From the NCBI RefSeq assembly GCF_024227435.1, contig NZ_CP100445.1, positions 3,531,369 through 3,595,368 on the forward strand: a DNA stretch of 64,000 nt, written 5' to 3'. The notes under the pieces were generated by a model that did no database searches, was not told the origin of the DNA, and saw only the letters and a list, made by a program, of their open reading frames with translations. Below, piece by piece: positions 3 to 15,689 of the stretch (positions within the stretch are counted from its first letter, which is position 1; every line of letters begins with the position of its first letter). The position numbers and the translations under genes are program-made. The stretch comes from Natrinema caseinilyticum (GTDB taxonomy: Archaea; Halobacteriota; Halobacteria; Halobacteriales; Natrialbaceae).

Positions 3-3000
3 GCGCGGGCGCTCCGCCTGATCGCGGCGGAGCGACCCGACGCAGTAGCGCCGTCCGTCGAACGCGTGTCTGCGGGGCTCGCGGACGAGCGTGAGCGGGT
101 CCGTGTCGACGTCGCGCGGGCGCTCGCTGCCGTCGCGGCCGAGCGTTCCGACGCCGCCACCGCGATCGTCAACGACCTGGCCGCGAGCCTCGACGACGAG
201 GCCGACGTCCGTCGAGAGACGATCCGAGCGCTTCGCGATGTCGCGGATGCCGACCCCGATGCGGTCGTTCCGGCCGTGGACGCACTCGTCGAGCGAGTCG
301 ACGATCCACTCGAGGAGGTTCGGACGAACGCCGCCGCGACGCTCGCGACGCTTTCTGCGGATCGACCTGACGCAGTCGAACCCGCGGTCGATCCGCTCGC
401 CCGCCGGCTGGCTCGCGACGAGCCGGCAGTCCGGAGCCACGGGGTCGCGGCCATCGCTGCCGTCGCGGACGCGACCCCCGAAGCCGTCGAGCCCGTCGTC
501 GGGGATCTCGCCGTGGTCCTCGACGACGAGAACGATGCCGTTCGGCTCGAAGCAGCCCGTTCGATCGCGGCTGTCTCGGATACCGGTCCCGATCCGATCC
601 GTCCGATCGTGTCGGAACTCGCTCGGAGAATCGACGATCCGCACGAACCGGTTCGCTATCGAGCGGCCGACGCGCTGAGCGCCATCGCACTCGCCGAACC
701 GGTCGACGGGGTCGACGTCCAGGCGCTCGTCGACCGACTCGAGTCGGACGACGAGTGGAGCAGCGGGCACGCCGCCCGCAAACTGGCGGAAATCGCCGAG
801 GCGCGGACGGCCGACGGCCATCCGGCAGTTCGATCGTTGTGTCGGAGACTCGAGTCCGACACCGACGCGATTCGGCGGGCGGCCGCCCGTGATCTCGTTC
901 CGATCGCAGCCGAGACGCAGCGGACGGCCCGCGAGACCGTTGCCCCGCTCGGCGACCGGCTCGCGGACGACGATGCGAGCGTCAGAAACAACGCGGCCCT
1001 CGCGCTCGCTCGAGTCGCCGAAACGTATCCCGACGTCGTGGAACCGGCGCTACCGGGGCTCTTCGGCGCACTCGACGATGCGGATCGAAGCGTGCGTACC
1101 ACGGTTCGCGAGACGCTTTCGGCGGTCGCACCCGAATCGCAGGCGGACTGCCGGCCGACGGTCGCGCTGGCCGTCGAAAAGACCGCTGCCGACGAGCCGG
1201 CCGTACGGGCGGGCGCCTGCGAGGCACTCGGGATCCTCGAACTCGAGACCGGCGCCGAGACCGAGGCCGTCATCGACGCCCTGGCGACGGTGCTCGTCGA
1301 ACCGCCGGTGGTGGTTCGAAGCGCGGCCCTCGAAACGCTCGTCGCGTTGCTCGGGGCCGACGAGGAAACCGAGCCGACGCCCGTCGAGACGATCGACGGA
1401 ATCCTGTCGACCGACGACGAGCGCGCAACGGCGGTTGCGACGGCGCTCGCCGATGTCGCACGAATGGACCCGGAACTGATCGCCGACGCGGCCACGCCGC
1501 TCGTCGAGCGATTACGAGCGGGAGACACCGGCCAGCGCCGAGCGATCGAACGCGCGCTCGCGACGGCCGCCGCGGAGACGAATCTGCGATCGGTCACGGC
1601 ACTCCTGTGCGAGGACCTCGAGTCCGGTGCGGACGAGACGGCCGGGACGGGCGGCGCGGTCGGTCGGCGCTCGATCGCGCTCGAGATCGCTCGACTCGCG
1701 GCGGCGGTCCCCGACGACGCGGCGTCCGCCCGGGACCGGCTGATCGCCTTGCTGGCGGACGAGGACCAGTCGGTCCGCGGGGGTGCGGCGCTCGCACTCG
1801 GGACGCTCGTGATCTCCGGTCGGAGCGACGGTGCTGCACTGGAGGACGCCCTCGAAGACGTCGACGAACAGGTGTCCGATGCGGCGTCACTCGTCGGCGG
1901 CGGCCGGGCGCCGAGGCGCACCGACGAGATAGACGCCCGCCGTTCCGCTTTCGGACGTCGGATCGACGGCGACCCGCGAGCCGGCGGACTGGCCGTTCTC
2001 GCGCTTTCGGTCCTCGCCGACGAGTCCGAACGACTGCGTCCGTCCACCGTCTCGACTATCGCGACCGGCCTGACCGCCGACAGCCCGGCCGTTCGGGTCA
2101 CGACCGGACGAACGCTCCTGACGATGGCGACCGACGATCCCCACGGGCTCGCCGAGGCGACCGACGAACTGCGCTCGGCGCTGTCGGATCCGGATGCGGA
2201 CGTTCGAGCGACCGCCGGCCGCGCGCTCGCGGAAATCACAGAGGTCACCGGGGAACTCGAGGGTGACGCCGACGAGATCGTACCGGCGCTCCGCGCTCGA
2301 CTGGCCGATCCCGACGGGAGAGTTCGAGAAGCCGCGGTTCGGACGCTCGCGGCTATCGAGGCCGTCGACTCGGTGTCCGCGGTTCGCCCGCTCGTCGACG
2401 ACCCCGTCCCCCCCGTTTCGGGCGCGGCGGCGACCGCGAAGGAACGACTCGAACACGTCCGCGACCGCGAGGGGTCCGAGGACGCCGACTGGCCGATGGT
2501 TGGCGCGGGACCCGCGGCGACCGGTTCGGTCGGGACCGGCGAGACGCTCGGCAAGAGCCCGACGGCGCTGTGGAGCGTCGAGACGGACGGCACGGTCGTC
2601 GCTCCGCCGGCGCTGGTCGACGATACCGTCTTCGTTACGAGCGACGACGGCCGCGTCACCGCACTGGCGCTCGAGGACGGACGCGAGCGCTGGCAGTTCG
2701 AATCCGAGGCGCCGATCGGGACGGCGCCGGCCGTCGTCGACGATACCGTCTACGTCGCCGGTGAAACCGCGGTGTACGCGCTCGAGGCGGGATCGGGTGA
2801 GCGAACCTGGCGGTACGAAACTGATACGCTCGTTCGGTCGTCACCGGTCGTCGCCGGCGGGAACGTGTACGTGGGTGGCACGACGCTCCACACGATCGAC
2901 GCGGAAACCGGCCAGCCGGTCTGGACGGCGGGTCTGGCCGGCCCGCTCGTCGGGATGGCCGTCGACGACGGCGTCGTCTACACCGTCTGTGAGGGGCGGG

Positions 3001-3548
3001 CGTCTGCACTCGCGTCCGAGGGTGGCCGCCGACGGTGGATGACGGCCCTCGACCGCAACGGGGAGGCGCTGACGAGGCCATCGGTCGCGAACGGGTGCGT
3101 CTACGTCGGCTGTGGCGGCTCGCTGCATGCGCTATCGGCCGCCGACGGTTCCCAACGCTTCCGATTCGATACCGGCGGCCCCCTCACTGCGTCGCTCGCA
3201 GTCGCAGACGGGCAGCTCCACGCCGCCAGCACGGACGGGAGCCTCTACGCGATCGAAACGAATACCGGCGCCGAGCGATGGCGCGTCGATGTTGGTGATC
3301 CGACGACCGGTCCGGTCGTCGTCGACGGGACCGTCTCGATCGCCACCGCTGACGGGATCGTCCACGGGCTGTCGGTCGCCGACGGTACCCGGCGATGGAA
3401 CCTCGAGTCGATCGACACGGGGGATGCCCCGTCGCTCGTCGGCGCGAACGGACGGCTCTGTCTCGTCGGCCGGGATGGCATCGCCGTAATCGGAACCGAA
3501 CAGCCGTCCTGGCGGGACTCGATCTCCGGTCTGTTCACTCGACTGTGA
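3..3548 (+). CDS. HEAT-repeat / PQQ-like beta-propeller protein (5' end outside window)
   Basis: The reading frame is open from base 3 and already encodes HEAT-type repeats before the first GTG at 66, so the gene starts upstream of the window. The first roughly 800 visible residues are tandem alpha-helical repeats of about 35-40 residues with recurring AVRxxAAxALAxIA-like helices. From about base 2487 a DWPM motif, typical of the entry to PQQ-type propellers, begins a repeat series of about eight blades with recurring VYVG, ALDAxTG and W-rich strands running to the C-terminus. HEAT arrays and PQQ propellers are both protein-binding scaffolds, so an assembly or sensory role is inferred. No catalytic motif is seen. 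It converges on the thioredoxin-like gene. Export cannot be judged because the N-terminus is missing. Confidence 0.9.
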   Translation, partial: ARALRLIAAERPDAVAPSVERVSAGLADERERVRVDVARALAAVAAERSDAATAIVNDLAASLDDEADVRRETIRALRDVADADPDAVVPAVDALVERVDDPLEEVRTNAAATLATLSADRPDAVEPAVDPLARRLARDEPAVRSHGVAAIAAVADATPEAVEPVVGDLAVVLDDENDAVRLEAARSIAAVSDTGPDPIRPIVSELARRIDDPHEPVRYRAADALSAIALAEPVDGVDVQALVDRLESDDEWSSGHAARKLAEIAEARTADGHPAVRSLCRRLESDTDAIRRAAARDLVPIAAETQRTARETVAPLGDRLADDDASVRNNAALALARVAETYPDVVEPALPGLFGALDDADRSVRTTVRETLSAVAPESQADCRPTVALAVEKTAADEPAVRAGACEALGILELETGAETEAVIDALATVLVEPPVVVRSAALETLVALLGADEETEPTPVETIDGILSTDDERATAVATALADVARMDPELIADAATPLVERLRAGDTGQRRAIERALATAAAETNLRSVTALLCEDLESGADETAGTGGAVGRRSIALEIARLAAAVPDDAASARDRLIALLADEDQSVRGGAALALGTLVISGRSDGAALEDALEDVDEQVSDAASLVGGGRAPRRTDEIDARRSAFGRRIDGDPRAGGLAVLALSVLADESERLRPSTVSTIATGLTADSPAVRVTTGRTLLTMATDDPHGLAEATDELRSALSDPDADVRATAGRALAEITEVTGELEGDADEIVPALRARLADPDGRVREAAVRTLAAIEAVDSVSAVRPLVDDPVPPVSGAAATAKERLEHVRDREGSEDADWPMVGAGPAATGSVGTGETLGKSPTALWSVETDGTVVAPPALVDDTVFVTSDDGRVTALALEDGRERWQFESEAPIGTAPAVVDDTVYVAGETAVYALEAGSGERTWRYETDTLVRSSPVVAGGNVYVGGTTLHTIDAETGQPVWTAGLAGPLVGMAVDDGVVYTVCEGRASALASEGGRRRWMTALDRNGEALTRPSVANGCVYVGCGGSLHALSAADGSQRFRFDTGGPLTASLAVADGQLHAASTDGSLYAIETNTGAERWRVDVGDPTTGPVVVDGTVSIATADGIVHGLSVADGTRRWNLESIDTGDAPSLVGANGRLCLVGRDGIAVIGTEQPSWRDSISGLFTRL

Positions 3549-3677: not shown

Positions 3678-4319
3678 TCAACCGTCGGTGGTCGCGTTCG
3701 TGGTTGGAGACGCGCCCGCGTCGGTCTCGTTCGTGGCGTTCGACGTGCGTCGCTCGCTCGTCTCGATAACCGACTCGACTGCCGCGACGATGTCGTCGGA
3801 ACGTACCACGCCGAGTTTTTCCCAGCGTTTCTCCCCCTGCCTGTCGATGACGATGGTCACCGGGAAGCCGGCGACGCCGTAGTTCGCCGCGAGCGACGAC
3901 TGCGGGTCGTAGCCGACGGTCCAGTTGCCGCTGTGGTCCCGCCACCAGGTGCGAAGTTCGTCCGTCGGCATCATATCTTTAGACTGGTAAGTCGCCGACA
4001 GGACCGTCAGACCGTCCCCGTGCGTATCGACGAGCCGGGAGTGAGCCTCGGCGAGACGAGGCATCTGGCCCTGACACGTGCCACAGCCGGTGACGAAGAA
4101 CATAACGACCGTCACGTCGCCGTTCGGAACCGCGACCGTCCCTGCCTCGCTGCCGCGAGCGTCTATCGTCTCGATTTCGACCGGCAACCCCGAGTCTCCG
4201 TCGCTCGAGGAGGCGGACCGTTCGTTTCCGAACGAGGGGACGCCGCCGAGAACGATGCCGGCCGCGCCGGCGAGGACGCCGAGGCTACCGACGCCGGCGA
4301 TCAGTTCCCGTCGCCTCAT
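3678..4319 (-). CDS. Tat-exported TlpA-like thioredoxin-fold protein
   Basis: 213 residues from ATG 4319. The frame is open further upstream, but the start at MRRRELIAG places a twin-arginine motif and a hydrophobic stretch at the N-terminus, as expected for an exported haloarchaeal protein. A CGTC redox motif follows a VVMFFVTG strand, and GFPVTIVID carries the conserved cis-proline of the thioredoxin fold; this fits the TlpA/AhpC-TSA group. The last 25 residues are Thr/Asn-rich and contain three N-x-T sequons (NAT, NET, NAT), which fits an extracytoplasmic position with possible N-glycosylation. The likely role is thiol-disulfide exchange or cytochrome/copper protein maturation outside the membrane; the substrate is unknown. 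Confidence 0.85.
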   Translation of the reverse strand: MRRRELIAGVGSLGVLAGAAGIVLGGVPSFGNERSASSSDGDSGLPVEIETIDARGSEAGTVAVPNGDVTVVMFFVTGCGTCQGQMPRLAEAHSRLVDTHGDGLTVLSATYQSKDMMPTDELRTWWRDHSGNWTVGYDPQSSLAANYGVAGFPVTIVIDRQGEKRWEKLGVVRSDDIVAAVESVIETSERRTSNATNETDAGASPTTNATTDG

Positions 4320-4839
4320 CGGTCTCCCACCTCCCGGATGGAGCGTGTGCGATCGGAATCGCGAGTTCGGTCGCCGCTCTGACAGCCCACCATAGGGGGA
4401 CTGTTGTCGCCCTAGATACAAAGGATTCACTGGTCTGCGAGTCGAAACCGCCGCGCGACCGGCGAGGCGACTCGAGTGCTCGGTCTCTCGAGCCACCGGT
4501 CTTCGGTTCGACCGCTGTGGCAGCCCGGGGACGCATTCGACGGTGCTGGCGACGATACCGGGAGCGCCGTTCGGTGTTCACACCCGACTCGAACGGATTG
4601 CTCGCTGTGACCACGTGTATATATTCAAATACGGAGTAATTAGATATAAGTTACCTCGGATAGAAGGAGAATACGGTTTCAGTCACGGGTGGTCGACGGG
4701 GATCGAAACGGTTCGAGTCCGGTCGACCCGTCTTCCGGGGCGAACCCGTTACCACGACCGCACGATTGAACGATGATGTCGAGCGACAACACGGCACCCA
4801 CGATCACCGCCTACGCGGCGCCAGCCCGGGGTGGGGCTG
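4320..4839. other. Intergenic region with AT-rich promoter-like block and hairpin
   Basis: No convincing protein gene. An unusually AT-rich block (about 4617-4660, containing GTATATATTC and GATATAAG) is followed by an inverted repeat GGTCGAC (4691-4697) / GTCGACC (4722-4728), whose inner part can pair TCGAA (4703-4707) with TTCGA (4712-4716) around an ACGG loop. A 24-codon reading frame beginning at 4773 ends inside the next gene and may or may not be translated. Confidence 0.5.
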
Positions 4840-5125: not shown

Positions 5126-8100
5126 TTACTCCGAGACCACTGCCTCGACGCGATCGATCTCGTCCTCGGTCAACCCGTATCGTTCGTAGACGAGTGCGTC
5201 GATTCGGCGGTCCGTCTCTTCGATTTGCTCCGTGAGGGCCGCCGCTCGATCCGTCGTCTCGAGGTAGCGCTCCAGACCGTCTCGAACGTCCTCGAGCGCG
5301 GGAAGGGTAAGCGCCCGAAGTCGGTCGACGAGGGAAATGGTTTTCGTGGCCGTCTTGCGGACGTTCGCGAAGCCACCGGCCTCGTCGACTGCGACGGGGA
5401 CGAAGGCCTCGATCAGGTCCGCCTCGCACCGCTCGAGATCGGTGAGACGGAACGCGGGTATCGGGTCGGTCTCGGTGTAGCCCCACTGGTCGGTCTCACA
5501 CTCCGACTCGCCCCCGGGAGCCACGGTCTCGGTCGCGTCCGCGGGTTTGTACCGGGCGGTCGCTTCGATCACGACCGTCCCGGCCGACCGGCGAGTCACG
5601 GTCGCGCGTCCGAGACGAAGCTGCGTCAGCTCCGTTGCCGTCCGGGAAAGCGGCGATTCGTCCGGCCCCGCCGGGCGTATCGACCCGATGCTCCAGAGGG
5701 GATCGCCCCATCGGTACTCCCCCAGATGCGCTTCGAGGTCGAGCGTCAGCGTCCCTCGCGTTCGGGTCGCCTCGATGCGCTGGGTCACGAGAGCCGCGAA
5801 TTCGGGGCCCGTCGGAACGGCGATCGGATAGGACTCGAACGTCGACTGGTTGATTTGGGGGAAGACGGACCGATATGCGGCGTGGGTCATCTCGTGATAG
5901 TACTCCAGCAGGGACGAATTGAGGACGCCGAGGATGTGCCGAAGGTCCGTTTCGGAATCGTCCGCGGCGATGTTGTACACCGACTTGATCGTCACCCGGG
6001 ATTCGGTATCGAGCGCACCCGTCGGCGCTGCTGCGGTCTGTCGGAAAACGAGCTTCGGGCTTCGATACTGTTCGCGGTCCTTGTCGATCTCCGTCGGCGA
6101 GATGTACCGGGTTTCCGCGGCGTCGAATCCGTACGGTTCGATGGCCGAGCCGGGAACGATCGCTTCCGACTCGTTCTGTCCGGGTGCGTCGGACAGCACG
6201 TCGGCCCGTTTGCTGATCTCCTCCCCTCGCGAGATCGAAACGCGTTCTCCGAGTTTCGGATGGGACGCCAGTTTCTGCAGGATCGATCGCGTGGGTCGGT
6301 TCAGGTGTAACAGGAACCGATGCTCGTCCTGTTCCCGAAAGACCGACTGCGGAATCTCGTCGTACTCGACCGATCCGACGGCCCTGGGACCATCGGTCGA
6401 CGCACACTTGACCGCACCCTCGCCAGCTCCGGTTACGAGGACCGCAACCCCGTTCTCGACGGTGTCGAACGCCGTCCCCAGGTGAAGGACGAACGCGATG
6501 TTCGTGCGGTCGAGCAGATACCGGCGAACGTGTGCGTTCTGTTCTCGAGTCAGTATCGCATCGGGAACGACGATTCCGATTCGACCGTCTGCGGCGAGAC
6601 GGACGAACTGTTCGGTGAAAGCGACGTACAGATCGAACTGCTGTCTCGTCGACTCGTACTCGGTTTCGAGATACGCACGGAGCGACCGGTCCATGGTCGC
6701 GCTGATGGCGCCCCGGCCCGCCGTCGCGACCCACGGCGGATTGCCGATCACCGCGTCGAACCCGGCGTGGTCTCGTCGTCGCCCGTTCTCGTCGAGAACG
6801 ACGTCGGGAAACTCGAGGTCCCAGTGAAAGAACCCCTCCGCCTCGCTCGCCGACTGCGCCCGCCTGAACCAGTCCGTCGTCCGCAAATCGGCCCACGCAT
6901 CCTCGTCCTCGATCGCTCGGACCACCCGCTCGCACGCGTCGTCGGGGACCTCGCGGTCGAACCGTGCCGCGGTGGCAACGTTCGCCAGTGCGACCAGTCG
7001 CCGGAAGCGCGGTTCGGTCCGGTTCCACTCGTCGACGTCCGCCGTCGACGCCAGATCCGTGAGCGTCTCGGTCGAGAGCCGCTCGGTTATCGTCGAACCG
7101 ACCAGCGAATTGCCCACCGCGAGATGGTGGTCGAGAGCGGGGGCCGCCCCGTCGGCCGCGGCCGTCTCGAGCCACAGCGTCAGCTTCGCCACCTCGACGG
7201 CCATTTCGTTCCTGTCGACGCCGTAGATGCACTGCGAAACGATCGCACGGCGAACTCGCCCTTCGTCGACTGTCGTCGGTCCGTTCGTCCTCCGTGCCTC
7301 GGCCATCACCTGGGCCGTGAGATACGCCGTGGCCCGCGTGAGGAAGTGGCCGCTCCCCATCGCGGGATCCAGAATCGAGACGTCGGTCACCGCGCGGACG
7401 AACGCGTCCACGTATTCGTCCGTTCCCGGCTCGAGGCCGCCCGACGAGAGGTCGTCTCTGATCTCGTCGAGTAACGGCCCGACGGTCTTCTCGACGACGT
7501 CGCTCACGACAGCGTCCGGCGTGTAGTAGGTTCCCGACGTCTTTCGGTCGCCGTCGTCGGTGACGACGTACAAGCCACCGCTGTCTACGGTCTCGATCGT
7601 CTCGCTCGCCGTCACCTCGGTTGCCGGTTTCCAGACCGTCTCACCGTCAGCGGGAACGCCGGCGTACTCGGTCGGCGCGATCCGAAACTGCTGCTCGAGC
7701 AACGCTTCGTAGCCGTTTCCGAGGTGACGCGTCTCGAGATCTGCGTATTCGATCGGAACGTACCGTCCATCGTCCGTTTCGGTCGTCGAGAGCCGGTAGA
7801 GCGCTTCCGCGAGGTATCGATCGCCGACCGCGTTTGCGGCCAGCAACTCGTGTGCCGATCGGTCGAACAGCCCGCCGTCGGTCCCGGGTAGACCGAGGTG
7901 CTCGTTTCGGTCGTCGATCCACCGAAACAGCGTCTCGAGTCGCCCCCACAACGCCGTCGAACGCGCGTCGTAGCGTTCGTCGAACCCGTCGCCGCTCGTG
8001 CCGATCTCGTCGTACACCTCGAGTCGGATCGCCTCGAGACCGAGCGGCGCGTCGTCCATCCGTGTGCCGTCGGGATCTGCGGGTCGGACGAGCCCTCGGG

Positions 8101-9133
8101 ACTCCGCGTAGCAAACGATCAGCAACCGGTAGAGCAGGACGAGTGACTGGGTTTTCAGTTCCTCGAGTCGCTCGTCGTCGCTCGGATCGACGTCGAGGTC
8201 GTTCGTCTCGACGAAGCCGCGACCGAGGAGCCTCAGTACAGCGAACCCGGTCTCTTCGAGGTCCGCGCCGAGTTCGCGGACGACCGCTTCGCTCTCCGCC
8301 CGGACCGAATCGAGACCCGACCTGCCCGCGGACTCGCGGAACGCGGCCGCACGGAAGAGAGCGTAAAAATATTTGAAGTCCTCGCTGTCGTCGCGCTCGA
8401 GCAGGTTCGGCAGATCGATCTCGTAGCAGGCCTGCGCCTCGTCCGTGTCGATCCCGTCGCTCCGGGTCTCCCTGGCGTCGGTTCCCCCGCCGTGAGTCTC
8501 GTCAGTGTCGACCCCGTCGTCCCAGATTTCGGAGGGGTCTGTCCCGTCGGTTCGAGTCTCGTCGTCTGCCCGATCGGGTGGCGTGTCGACCTCGCTTGCA
8601 CGGTACAACCGCCACGTTCGCCCGTTCGTGAGGATTCCCCATCCGATCGTCTCCGGCGTGCGCTCGAGAACGCGGGCGATCCGGTCGGACGCGGTTCGGT
8701 CGATCGGTCGGTCGCCGACCGGCGTCGTGGCGTCGTCGTCTCGGCGACAGATCGCGACGATTCCGAGCGCGTGCTCGGACGGATCGGTCCGGTCGTCGGC
8801 GTCCGAGAGCGGTTTCTGACTCTCCCGTCCGGCCGGGGTATCAGCCAACAGGAGGACGTCGACGGCGCCGGTATCGTCGGGTGCCGTCATCCAGTGAGTC
8901 GACCCGAACCCGAGGACGTCGAGTACCTCCCGGACGCGGTCTCCGGTCGCGAACGGGTCGTCGGAGACGGGATCAGATTCGCCGTCGAACAGCCCTCGCA
9001 GCCGCTCCATCGCATCGGCCGCCGCCTCGTCGCAGTCCCACGCCGGTCGGTTCTGGATCCGCTCGTCGAGATAGTACCTCGCAAAGAGCGTCGAACGAGC
9101 GTACGGACGATCCGACGGCGCTGCCTCCCTCAT
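5126..9133 (-). CDS. Large type IIG-like DNA adenine methyltransferase, nuclease motif apparently degraded
   Basis: 1335 residues from ATG 9133; a GTG at 9172 is possible, but it overlaps a TATA-like TTTCTTA. The N-terminal region resembles type IIG enzymes, including LTNGRTWRLY at 168-177, but the position that normally reads ExK in the PD-(D/E)xK nuclease shows VAICRR (126-131). An imperfect decapeptide repeat follows at 193-234. The methyltransferase core has SGTYYTP (533-539), DPAMGSGHFL (589-598), GVDRNEMAVE (638-647) and the N6-adenine motif NPPW (798-801). The C-terminal 400 residues fit a target-recognition domain. No separate nuclease, helicase or BREX gene lies nearby, so it may act as a solitary DNA modification enzyme. 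Eco57I-type is the closest family description. Confidence 0.85.
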   Translation of the reverse strand: MREAAPSDRPYARSTLFARYYLDERIQNRPAWDCDEAAADAMERLRGLFDGESDPVSDDPFATGDRVREVLDVLGFGSTHWMTAPDDTGAVDVLLLADTPAGRESQKPLSDADDRTDPSEHALGIVAICRRDDDATTPVGDRPIDRTASDRIARVLERTPETIGWGILTNGRTWRLYRASEVDTPPDRADDETRTDGTDPSEIWDDGVDTDETHGGGTDARETRSDGIDTDEAQACYEIDLPNLLERDDSEDFKYFYALFRAAAFRESAGRSGLDSVRAESEAVVRELGADLEETGFAVLRLLGRGFVETNDLDVDPSDDERLEELKTQSLVLLYRLLIVCYAESRGLVRPADPDGTRMDDAPLGLEAIRLEVYDEIGTSGDGFDERYDARSTALWGRLETLFRWIDDRNEHLGLPGTDGGLFDRSAHELLAANAVGDRYLAEALYRLSTTETDDGRYVPIEYADLETRHLGNGYEALLEQQFRIAPTEYAGVPADGETVWKPATEVTASETIETVDSGGLYVVTDDGDRKTSGTYYTPDAVVSDVVEKTVGPLLDEIRDDLSSGGLEPGTDEYVDAFVRAVTDVSILDPAMGSGHFLTRATAYLTAQVMAEARRTNGPTTVDEGRVRRAIVSQCIYGVDRNEMAVEVAKLTLWLETAAADGAAPALDHHLAVGNSLVGSTITERLSTETLTDLASTADVDEWNRTEPRFRRLVALANVATAARFDREVPDDACERVVRAIEDEDAWADLRTTDWFRRAQSASEAEGFFHWDLEFPDVVLDENGRRRDHAGFDAVIGNPPWVATAGRGAISATMDRSLRAYLETEYESTRQQFDLYVAFTEQFVRLAADGRIGIVVPDAILTREQNAHVRRYLLDRTNIAFVLHLGTAFDTVENGVAVLVTGAGEGAVKCASTDGPRAVGSVEYDEIPQSVFREQDEHRFLLHLNRPTRSILQKLASHPKLGERVSISRGEEISKRADVLSDAPGQNESEAIVPGSAIEPYGFDAAETRYISPTEIDKDREQYRSPKLVFRQTAAAPTGALDTESRVTIKSVYNIAADDSETDLRHILGVLNSSLLEYYHEMTHAAYRSVFPQINQSTFESYPIAVPTGPEFAALVTQRIEATRTRGTLTLDLEAHLGEYRWGDPLWSIGSIRPAGPDESPLSRTATELTQLRLGRATVTRRSAGTVVIEATARYKPADATETVAPGGESECETDQWGYTETDPIPAFRLTDLERCEADLIEAFVPVAVDEAGGFANVRKTATKTISLVDRLRALTLPALEDVRDGLERYLETTDRAAALTEQIEETDRRIDALVYERYGLTEDEIDRVEAVVSE
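8432..8557. repeat. Degenerate 30-bp tandem repeat (decapeptide repeat in coding sequence)
   Basis: Four adjacent 10-codon units inside the methyltransferase gene encode variants of E-T-x-x-D-G-x-D-x-x, such as ETRTDGTDPS and ETRSDGIDTD. The bases repeat with a 30-bp period (gtctc...tcg...cccgtcg on the + strand), with substitutions between units. It lies in the acidic linker between the N-terminal domain and the helical part. Confidence 0.75.
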
Positions 9134-9252
9134 AGATACACTGTGTCTCGAATCGTCGGCGTAAGAAACCACTGGTCGATACGACCCCGTCCGGCGATTC
9201 CACCGAAGGCAATACGCTTTTTACGGCTGCACGCTCACTCGAGAGCGAGACC

Positions 9253-9933
9253 GTGTCTTCCCTCGTTGGTACCACGCTTGCCGGCGCGATCTTCGGGCTC
9301 GCCCTCGCGGCGCCGCCGGGACCGATGAACGCGATCATCGCCGAGGAAAGCGTCGTTCGCGGGTGGTCGGCCGGGTTCCGCGCCGGGTTCGGCGTGATGC
9401 TCGCGGACGCGCTGTTCTTCGTCCTGACGCTGGCCGGCGTCGTCGCCGTCATCGATCGCAATCCCGTCGTTCGGCCCGCGCTCTACCTCGCCGGCGGCTG
9501 TCTCATGCTGTACTTCGCGATCGGCGCGATCGACGAGGCCAGGTCCGCGTCGTCGTTTACCGACGCCGGTCGGGTCGCCGCGTCTGGCTTTCGAAAAACG
9601 TTCGCGCTCTCGCTGACCAATCCCTACCAGATCGGCTTCTGGCTCACCGTCGGCGTCGGTCTGCTTGAGCCGGGAACCCTCGACGTCCTCGCGGCCGTGC
9701 CGGTCGCCGGGCACGCGCTCGAGGGTGCGTTCGTCGTCCAGACCGGTTCGCCGGCGCTGTTGGCCGGCTTGTTCGGTGGTGTGACCTGCTGGATCGTGGT
9801 CTTTCCGGCAACGCTCGCTGCCGCCGGCCGTCGCATCGACGCGTTTGCACCGGCCGTGGCCGCACTGAGCGCCGTGGTCCTCGTGGGATTCGGACTGCTC
9901 TTTCTGGTCGTGGGGACGCTCCGGATCGTCTGA
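9253..9933 (+). CDS. LysE/ArgO-family exporter
   Basis: 226 residues from GTG 9253. A CTTTTTACGG TATA-like box about 35 bases upstream supports this short-leader start. The N-terminus has the family signature AAPPGPMNAIIAEE, followed by a conserved RGW and about six hydrophobic segments. A central F-A-L-S-LTNPYQIGFW motif matches the second signature of the LysE translocator family. These proteins export amino acids or other small metabolites across the cytoplasmic membrane, usually driven by the ion gradient. It is divergent from the DNA methyltransferase and has no linked regulator, so the substrate cannot be deduced. Confidence 0.88.
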   Translation: MSSLVGTTLAGAIFGLALAAPPGPMNAIIAEESVVRGWSAGFRAGFGVMLADALFFVLTLAGVVAVIDRNPVVRPALYLAGGCLMLYFAIGAIDEARSASSFTDAGRVAASGFRKTFALSLTNPYQIGFWLTVGVGLLEPGTLDVLAAVPVAGHALEGAFVVQTGSPALLAGLFGGVTCWIVVFPATLAAAGRRIDAFAPAVAALSAVVLVGFGLLFLVVGTLRIV

Positions 9934-10236
9934 TCGGATGCGAACGACACGGCGGCCGTCGAGGAGTCGATTTCACGGCGAGTACCGTCGGTCGAACGGT
10001 CGTCCCCGAAACCGGGGTGGCGAAAAGGAGCGTTACACAGGCGATCGCGAGGGCGATTTCGGCCGTTCGGCACAGCGTGCCCGTTACCCTCGTCTCGAAA
10101 CGACACCAGCACGAACGCACCGGCCGGACCACCCGAACGACGACGGCTCACGACGCGGCGACTCGAGCGAGGAGCGGCCGCCTCGGCACCGAACGCGGCG
10201 AGGACGGCTGGTGAGGTGGATCGAGAGCCGACGGGA
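9934..10236. other. Spacer between convergent genes
   Basis: About 300 bases between the LysE-type gene and the HD-domain gene. Reading frames here have shadow-like composition, and I see no promoter, repeat or RNA signature. Confidence 0.5.
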
Positions 10237-10911
10237 TTACTCGCCCAGGGCGGCGATCTCGTCCTCGAGCCACTCGCTGAACCACTTGACGCGTTTTAGC
10301 CGCTGGTGGCCGATGCTCTCGGCAGTGTCGCTTTGCACGCGCGAGGCTGCGTCGTACCCCCGTTCGAGGACACGTTCGACCATCTCGTCGGCGTCCATGT
10401 GGGTCCGCGCCTCGTACCCCATCCGAAGCAACATCAGGGCGGTGCCGTTCGCTCCGATCTTGTCGAGCAAGTCCGCTTCGATGAGACACTGGGTCTCCAG
10501 GGCGAGGTCGGTCAGGTCGCCCTGATAGGAGTGGTGTTCGACGGCGTGACACACCTGCTGGACGAACGATTCCGGATAGTCACCGCGCGACTCGAGGTAC
10601 TCGCGGGCGACGCGAGCGCCGGCCTCGGCGTGGAGCTCCTGGTCGGTCTCGAGTTTGGCGACGTCGTGGAAGAGAGCGGCGACGCGGGTGACGTCGACGT
10701 CCGCGCCCTCCTTTTCGGCGATTTCGGTCGCGAGCTCGACCACGTTGAGGATGTGGTTGTGCCGGTACTCGGCGGAGTGCCAGGGGTACCAGCGCATGCG
10801 ACCGCCCTCGTCTTCCTTTTCGACGCTAGCTGCGAGATATTCGAAGACGAAGCCCTTCATCGCCTCGAATTCGGCATCCGTCACACCGGTTTCTTTTATT
10901 TCAACTCCCAC
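10237..10911 (-). CDS. HD-domain phosphohydrolase-like protein
   Basis: 224 residues from GTG 10911 (N-terminus MGVEIKETGV). The frame continues to 10992, but the extra residues look unlike the rest. HNH at residues 51-53 and the paired HD at 82-83 (LFHDVAK) are metal ligands of the HD superfamily; a later HAEAG and VEHHSYQG add further histidines, and a Asp-rich ADLLDKIGANG helix follows. HD proteins hydrolyse phosphate esters of nucleotides or act as metal-dependent phosphodiesterases. The exact substrate is unknown. It stands alone, with its promoter in the short divergent-type spacer upstream. Confidence 0.82.
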   Translation of the reverse strand: MGVEIKETGVTDAEFEAMKGFVFEYLAASVEKEDEGGRMRWYPWHSAEYRHNHILNVVELATEIAEKEGADVDVTRVAALFHDVAKLETDQELHAEAGARVAREYLESRGDYPESFVQQVCHAVEHHSYQGDLTDLALETQCLIEADLLDKIGANGTALMLLRMGYEARTHMDADEMVERVLERGYDAASRVQSDTAESIGHQRLKRVKWFSEWLEDEIAALGE

Positions 10912-14592: not shown

Positions 14593-15689
14593 GCATGGAC
14601 TCGGACGACGAATCGCTGCTCGAGGCGCTGTTAGCGGGGGAACACCGCGCGCTCGCCAGAGTAATCTCGAAGATCGAGAACCGCTCGTCGGGCTATCGGG
14701 AGCTCGTCTCGGAACTCTACGCACACACGGGCAACGCGGACGTCATCGGAATCACGGGAAGCCCCGGTGCGGGAAAGTCGACGCTGGTGGATAAACTCGC
14801 CGAGGCCTACCGCGAGCGCGGCGAGACGGTCGGGATCATCGCGATCGATCCCTCCTCACCGTTTACGGGCGGGGCCGTTCTCGGCGACCGGATCCGGATG
14901 GCGTCTACGGTCGGCGACATGGACGTCTTCGTCCGCTCGATGAGCGCCCGCGGCACCCTCGGGGGGCTTTCGACGGCGACCGCGGACGCGGTCAAGGCGA
15001 TGGACGCCTTCGGCAAGGACAAGATCATCATCGAAACCGTCGGCGCCGGCCAGAACGAAATCGACATCGTTCGGACTGCCGACAGCGTCGCCGTCCTCGT
15101 CCCACCCGGGTCGGGCGACGACATTCAAACGCTGAAAGCGGGCATCCTCGAGATCGCCGATATCTTCGTCGTCAACAAAGCCGACCGGGACGGCGCGGAC
15201 CGGACCGTCCAGGAACTGCGTGAGATGGTCCACCTCGGCGAGGAAAGCGGGATCGCCGGCGGAGGCGGTGGTCACCACGGTGTCGACGCGACGGGCGGCG
15301 GTGTCGACTCGGGCGGGGCCGACGGGGTAGACGGCCCGGACGACGACTGGACACCGCCCATCGTCGAAACGGTCGCAACGACGGGGACCGGCGTCGACGA
15401 GTTCATCGATCAACTCGCGACCCACCGCGCGCACCTCGTCGACTCCGGCGCCCTCGCCGAGAAGGTACGCACGCGCTACGCCGAAGAGATCCGCACGCTG
15501 CTGCGCGAGGACGTCCACGCCATGCTCGAAGCCGAACTCGCCGAACGAGGCGGGGTCGACGACCTCGCCGAAGCCGTCCGTCGGGGCGAGACCGATCCCT
15601 ATTCAATCGTGACCGACGTCCTCGAACCCGTCGAGGACTGTCTCGGGGACATAGAGACCGAGGCCGGCGCGGCCTCGAGAACGGAGTAG
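14589..15689 (+). CDS. meaB: MeaB-like GTPase, methylmalonyl-CoA mutase chaperone
   Basis: 366 residues from ATG 14589 (ATGA overlap with the mutase subunit; a second ATG at 14595 is possible). It belongs to the G3E/ArgK-MeaB P-loop GTPases: Walker A GSPGAGKST at 57-65, switch region DPSSPFTGGA, ETVGAGQNE as the Walker B region, and NKAD for guanine specificity. Between NKAD and the PPIVETVA strand there is a Gly/His/Asp-rich insertion of about 35 residues (codons near 15250-15350) with low complexity. MeaB guards the mutase by gating cofactor loading and removing damaged cobalamin. Co-transcription with the B12 subunit supports this role. Confidence 0.95.
   Translation: MSMDSDDESLLEALLAGEHRALARVISKIENRSSGYRELVSELYAHTGNADVIGITGSPGAGKSTLVDKLAEAYRERGETVGIIAIDPSSPFTGGAVLGDRIRMASTVGDMDVFVRSMSARGTLGGLSTATADAVKAMDAFGKDKIIIETVGAGQNEIDIVRTADSVAVLVPPGSGDDIQTLKAGILEIADIFVVNKADRDGADRTVQELREMVHLGEESGIAGGGGGHHGVDATGGGVDSGGADGVDGPDDDWTPPIVETVATTGTGVDEFIDQLATHRAHLVDSGALAEKVRTRYAEEIRTLLREDVHAMLEAELAERGGVDDLAEAVRRGETDPYSIVTDVLEPVEDCLGDIETEAGAASRTE

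Follow-up and report, generated by a model that had tools for sequence, protein, structure and literature searches.

A type IIG-like methyltransferase of Natrinema caseinilyticum that has lost its nuclease active site is probably an orphan adenine methylase

Introduction

Can a fused restriction enzyme that has lost its cutting half persist as a working DNA methylase? How restriction enzymes turn into regulatory methylases is debated, and the transition is described as infrequent (PMC6471742; further background in PMC8103870 and PMC12160562). The question is raised by a gene at positions 5126–9133 of a 64,000-nucleotide stretch of Natrinema caseinilyticum DNA (contig NZ_CP100445.1, positions 3,531,369 to 3,595,368; hereafter the window). 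This gene encodes a type IIG-like adenine DNA methyltransferase with a seemingly dead nuclease domain. An earlier reading, made from the letters alone, had placed the gene correctly and had proposed either a solitary modification enzyme or an unusual defence methylase whose nuclease was lost or replaced. Our comparisons with relatives suggest, with a probability of roughly 75%, that the protein descends from a type IIG enzyme and is active as an orphan methylase.

Results

A type IIG-like methylase gene without a nuclease active site

The gene, with all parts of it located below, lies on the minus strand and encodes 1335 amino acids followed by a stop codon, counted from an ATG at 9133. The open reading frame (ORF) continues to an in-frame GTG at 9172 (5126–9172, 1348 amino acids), which would add 13 residues. 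The plus strand of 5126–9133 contains stops. The gene is present in a single copy in its genome (G000), and the nearest named relative that we found is a Natrinema gelatinilyticum protein (85%).

The methylase part is intact. Pfam matches above cut-off include Eco57I (residues 634–885, 93 bits), the TaqI_C specificity domain (residues 1012–1104, 49 bits, 5822–6100), N6_Mtase and MmeI_Mtase; the same scan found no match in the N-terminus. The methyltransferase motifs are preserved, as the sequence-only reading had held: GTYYTP, DPAMGSGHFL (motif I, with DPAMGSGHF at residues 589–597, 7343–7369) and NPPW (motif IV, residues 798–801, 6731–6742). Motifs I and IV and the C-terminal recognition domain share one chain, which is the arrangement of type IIG enzymes.

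We identified 72 matching ORFs, including the query itself (L051). Fifty-nine rows, with the query among them, were used for comparison; 11 rows from duplicates of genomes already represented (L073, L075–L080 and L082–L085) and the short rows L148 and L081 (the latter matching only residues 286–1329) were left out. Two intact nuclease scaffolds occur among these relatives. Scaffold A reads ‘YVD..LLFED...VEAKQWD...NASHQI’ and scaffold B reads ‘RPDYGFF...VADAKRW...NPSYQI’. Alignment and tree both place the query in scaffold A, and it reads GIVAICRRD where A reads GLVEAKQWD.

The query’s N-terminal PD-(D/E)XK-type domain (residues 12–183, 8585–9100) is degenerate. VAICRR, at residues 126–131, aligns exactly with VEAKQW in relatives of 40–48% identity. 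Residues 127–129 (8747–8755) read A-I-C in place of the catalytic E-x-K, so that Ala stands at the Glu site and Cys at the Lys site, and the earlier claim that both residues were lost holds; LTNGRTWRLY, which it had placed after the nuclease, is found at residues 168–177. The conserved Gln of the next helix is replaced by Arg at position 151 (8681–8683). Among the four active-site positions (D, E/D, K and Q), only Asp92 (8858–8860), the sole acidic residue left, is kept, and the domain lacks the catalytic D...(E/D)xK of type IIG enzymes. Our alignments contain no conserved triad elsewhere in the domain, a finding that would have spoken against loss. Each of the 34 relatives whose recognition block is a different one keeps all four positions, and both Glu and Lys have been lost from the orthologues L052 and L053 as well; the loss is therefore not a matter of chance. 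Gln is also missing from L052 and L053, and a third orthologue (L054) lacks the whole domain.

The alignment of the N-terminal domain with its intact relatives is clear. An AlphaFold2 model of residues 1–245, built from 11 sequences, has a mean predicted local distance difference test (pLDDT) score of 57.5. In structural comparisons this low-pLDDT model matches BpuSI (Z 6.4, root-mean-square deviation 3.8, 119 aligned residues), with HsdR proteins also among the best matches and two mitoribosomal chains ranking at least as high. The structure prediction called for by the sequence-only reading is thus compatible with a restriction-endonuclease fold and is no proof of it. A PDB sequence search with a profile of the intact N-terminal domains returned nothing at E 5, and Foldseek returned no match for the model at E 0.001. 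One intact scaffold-A enzyme has a sub-threshold hit (E 7.5e-5) to the Pfam model for the N-terminal domain of MmeI. The domain still resembles a worn restriction-endonuclease domain, and the earlier suggestion of a replaced nuclease finds no support.

Selection is reversed between the nuclease domain and the recognition block

The region from motif IV through the target-recognition domain (residues 766–1104, 5822–6838; NPPWVATAG...SRGEE.), which we call the VATAG block, has the lowest ratio of nonsynonymous to synonymous substitution (dN/dS) in the protein. Ratios were estimated with NG86 and 1000 codon bootstraps, a method that is crude for GC-rich genes. In three orthologue pairs the block gave 0.20, 0.16 and 0.16. 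The nuclease domain gave 0.60 [0.34–1.04], 0.54 [0.36–0.80] and 0.50 [0.32–0.71] in these pairs and 0.07–0.10 in five intact pairs. Two pairs of other nuclease-dead relatives gave 0.30 and 0.33 for the nuclease, and some constraint therefore persists there too. The nuclease domain and the methylase are joined by a connector (residues 237–515, 7589–8425).

The usual regime is reversed in these proteins. When pairs of similar motif-I identity are compared, intact relatives keep the scaffold and vary the block (mean block identity 27–32%), and dead block-sharing relatives keep the block best. In the 0.7–0.8 range of motif-I identity, the 3 dead block-sharing pairs have mean identities of 0.85 (block) and 0.69 (nuclease), and the 165 intact pairs have 0.27 and 0.65, respectively.

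One recognition block is shared by nuclease-dead relatives on different scaffolds

The VATAG block forms one clade of 25 of the 59 rows (support 99). Over residues 237–690 these 25 rows are not a clade, and the query and its orthologues nest within scaffold A. An approximately unbiased (AU) test, from which five long or odd rows (L049, L054, L135, L136 and L137) were also left out, rejected a single clade of the 20 block rows that remained (p-AU 1.8e-144; 6.6e-7 without L134). The E/D-x-K is kept in only 1 of the 25 block rows, compared with 34 of the 34 other rows, and the block rows span at least two nuclease scaffolds. These comparisons suggest that the cutting half was lost more than once among the relatives.

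The tree needs just three block changes and two changes of nuclease state, and an independent-pairs sign test of block against nuclease loss is not significant (three pairs, p 0.5). Two separate nuclease losses are therefore supported, and a causal tie to the block is not demonstrated; with two to three independent events, the tie between the VATAG block and nuclease loss is suggestive.

The exceptional block row is L134 (5101–9123 in genome G214), which keeps D-x-K and Gln and has Glu in place of the first Asp. It may be a working enzyme with the same specificity.

Single copies of the block are found in 16 of 29 Natrinema genomes (50–100% identity), and 18 genomes in a sample of 392 from the order carry it (E 1e-85 or better). 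No near relative was found on plasmids, where all 84 records fall below 60% identity and the best among the matches listed reaches 29%. Phages gave four weak matches, none above 33% identity. Viral contigs gave no match for the block query and one intact relative for the other query. This relative (L226, 1864–5556 of IMGVR_UViG_3300038974_000721, listed as viral) carries an intact B-type site, PDYAFF...GDAKAW...NPSYQI.

Orthologues occupy one insertion site

Matches to the query occur in 60 of 125 genomes of the same family (E 1e-20). Orthologues in three Natrinema genomes (G054, G055 and G062) occupy the same site as the query, between a thioredoxin/TlpA-like gene (3678–4496 in the window, minus strand) and a LysE-type exporter gene (9253–9933, plus strand). 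The frame is open over 1335 codons in the query and is open in the three orthologues too. In G062 the first ~288 residues are absent from the open frame and the N-terminal domain is lost.

The LysE gene was found in all 29 Natrinema genomes searched, and the 25 other genomes show no trace of the methylase gene next to it (best E 1.0). In 11 of these 25 the site is empty, with a TlpA-like gene (at least 50% identity) no more than 1 kb from LysE. Among the remainder, the TlpA-like gene is 4 kb off in G067, only a 32–40% match lies near in five, and none was seen in the examined stretch in eight.

A tree of the LysE and HD proteins joins the four carriers (support 82), with the same branching order as the gene tree: ((G000,G054),G055),G062. 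It is built from linked genes and is not a species tree. The shared site in four genomes and the trees of the same order point to vertical inheritance within this clade.

One nuclease-dead relative probably still methylates DNA

Natrinema versiforme BOL5-4 is reported to have among its motifs the fully modified GACGAAC (100%, gene FEJ81_15005) and GAACAYC (100%, FEJ81_15230), with gene assignments that the report calls putative (PMC6696651). We used Pfam PF01555 matches on contig C2 of genome G077 as anchors: 1,500.9 kb (CATTC, 07280), 1,997.0 kb (CTAG, 09745) and 3,336.7 kb, taken as CCWGG (16560), with identities inferred from fit. Divided by five, tag numbers then climb by 0.97, 0.99 and 1.02 per kb, and the VATAG-block gene of G077, at 3,034,158–3,037,743, interpolates near 15030; the estimate without the third anchor is 14785–14910. 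A second Eco57I gene lies 34–58 naive gene calls beyond the block gene, depending on candidate and cut-off, compared with 45 expected. A scan of the block gene’s seven larger neighbours on its 20 kb stretch revealed no other methylase.

In the G077 block relative (L058), three residues of the nuclease site are missing: the first Asp, the Lys and the Gln. The published assignment of GACGAAC thus probably refers to this gene. As the fully modified motif fits a nuclease-dead protein, such a relative is probably an active methylase.

GACGAAC itself is frequent in the window (76 occurrences over 1–64000, compared with a mean of 40.8 in dinucleotide shuffles, about twofold). We considered this excess as a mark of methylation and rejected it in favour of codon usage, because related heptamers are equally common and the density per 64 kb is similar in loci of genomes with the gene (68.7) and without it (64.6).

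Neighbouring genes and the acidic insert

The eight neighbours scanned encode a HEAT/PQQ protein, a thioredoxin-like protein, LysE, an HD-domain protein, a penicillin amidase, a B12-binding protein, MeaB and an alpha/beta hydrolase. Neither a nuclease nor a defence partner was found among them, and within the chain and these eight neighbours there is no cognate nuclease. Weak PADLOC matches of neighbours to OloA, Cas3 and mad8 agree with repeat, HD and GTPase folds; the OloA match belongs to a HEAT-repeat protein fused to a PQQ beta-propeller (66–3548).

On a separate contig of the same genome (C3, 113.5 kb; 5270–5755 and 9703–10410; L071, L074 and L221), a PglZ-domain gene lies about 4 kb from an Eco57I gene with a 1445-residue frame. 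These genes are possibly a BREX-like (bacteriophage exclusion) system that a plasmid of this organism carries.

An acidic, repeat-like insert of 60 residues (residues 178–237, 8423–8602) follows LTNGRTWRLY within the former nuclease domain. This hairpin grows from 21 residues in L053 to 41 in L052 and 60 in the query; the other matched rows have 10–12. A tandem-repeat origin was considered and rejected, as nothing was found beyond one short, low-scoring row.

Discussion

If the query is an active orphan methylase, its methylase and recognition block would bind a short site that is probably asymmetric and methylate one strand of it at an adenine. Cutting by the attached nuclease domain would have ceased with the loss of Glu, Lys and the accessory Gln from its active site. 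The gene would have entered the chromosome between the TlpA-like and LysE genes in an ancestor of the four sampled Natrinema species and then descended vertically. Methylation in vivo, the absence of cutting and a benefit of the mark to the host are our inferences. The solitary modification enzyme of the sequence-only reading is supported: the query and its orthologues have all lost the nuclease site, purifying selection acts on the methylase and no nuclease or defence partner was found among the eight neighbours scanned.

Several points weigh against this interpretation. The BOL5-4 link comes partly from interpolated locus tags, and the gene assignments in that report are themselves tentative (PMC6696651). 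The query and its G077 relative share ~52% identity in the block, so the query’s target may differ. Orphan methylases are reported to tend to leave sites unmethylated (PMC4752239), whereas GACGAAC is 100% modified. Finally, dN/dS in the query’s nuclease domain is still below 1, and some constraint therefore remains on that domain.

The gene could instead be a dying relic, a former restriction enzyme drifting towards loss whose leftover methylation serves no purpose. The relaxed nuclease domain, the acidic insert and the lost N-terminal domain in G062 would all fit decay. We consider this unlikely, as the full-length frame and its three orthologues remain open, and the block keeps its low dN/dS and 70–91% identity among the four orthologues. 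Retained cutting through other residues is much less probable still. Asp92 is kept, the low-pLDDT model is compatible with restriction endonucleases and dN/dS stays below 1, but none of Glu, Lys and Gln survives in the query, L052 or L053, the orthologue L054 does without the domain and selection on it is relaxed about sixfold relative to intact relatives.

Two further explanations assign the methylase a part in conflicts between systems. It might be a defence methylase whose nuclease or effector is supplied in trans, like PglX in BREX or DrmMI in DISARM (defence island system associated with restriction–modification). The best PADLOC match of the query is DrmMI (189 bits), and PglX models match its methylase region too. 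However, neither pglZ and brxC nor, in PADLOC, the class 1 DISARM genes drmA, drmB, drmC and drmD were found among the eight neighbours, no nuclease gene is there, NCBIfam BREX PglX matches are far below cut-off (66 versus 500 bits) and the strong PglZ match of the genome is on contig C3 with its other Eco57I gene. We therefore regard such a role, and with it the earlier suggestion of an unusual defence methylase, as improbable. To a resident vaccine, which would methylate the target sites of same-block restriction enzymes in circulation and blunt their cutting or addictive hold, we give the least credence. In the block tree, no row lies nearer to the four orthologues (support 90) than L134, which shares the block and keeps D-x-K and Gln. 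Yet L134 is the only such row of 25 and has Glu for the first Asp, and no close block was found on plasmids, phages or viral contigs.

A broader proposal goes beyond the single gene: one methylase and recognition block may repeatedly have been retained on the chromosome as a DNA marker, with its attached nuclease discarded, on at least two scaffolds. We put this forward tentatively, with the odds somewhat against it. If true, it would be a replicated natural experiment in which a restriction enzyme becomes an epigenetic writer, and methylation at the block’s target would be useful to Natrinema and its relatives. The fused enzyme displays the change within a single gene family for which intact relatives serve as controls, with a worn nuclease retained, selection reversed between nuclease and block, and probably two separate losses on one block. 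The question of how such transitions occur is therefore testable by comparing Natrinema species.

Our literature search found no paper on this gene or on the VATAG block, which is no proof that none exists. In kind, the query is known, as a probable orphan methylase from a fused enzyme; the point of interest is the apparently repeated nuclease loss on one block. It shares with type IIG enzymes of the Eco57I, MmeI and BpuSI kind the order of nuclease, connector, methylase and recognition domain. It differs from them, and from its 34 relatives that keep the active site, in having lost the Glu, Lys and Gln of the nuclease site.

Among haloarchaea, HVO_A0006/HVO_A0237 of Haloferax volcanii is likewise a type IIG enzyme parted from its nuclease. 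That gene is broken in two, HVO_A0006 keeps an intact nuclease motif and the studies cited found no methylation, whereas the query is a single frame with a point-mutated nuclease (PMC4389544, PMC5867850). A survey of persistent haloarchaeal methylases describes HG5, a PglX-like group found in 7 of 9 Haloterrigena genomes and assigned CTGGAG (PMC10609329). The genus in which HG5 persists overlaps with our search group, and HG5, compared by description only, may or may not correspond to the query family.

The best PDB sequence match of the query’s methylase is CamA of Clostridioides difficile, which is described as an orphan methylase (PMC8187626). CamA has 577 amino acids and, unlike the query, no N-terminal nuclease-like domain.

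A close precedent is DnmA (YeeA) of Bacillus subtilis. DnmA is described as a homologue of the fused enzyme MmeI without the N-terminal endonuclease motif, and as an orphan methylase that methylates the non-palindromic GACGAG and affects gene expression (PMC7261158, PMC9973331). By analogy, the query would likewise be an orphan methylase derived from a fused restriction enzyme. The two differ in that DnmA has the conserved neighbours yeeB and yeeC, which have no counterpart among the neighbours scanned here, and in that the query is archaeal and belongs to another branch, Eco57I/TaqI_C.

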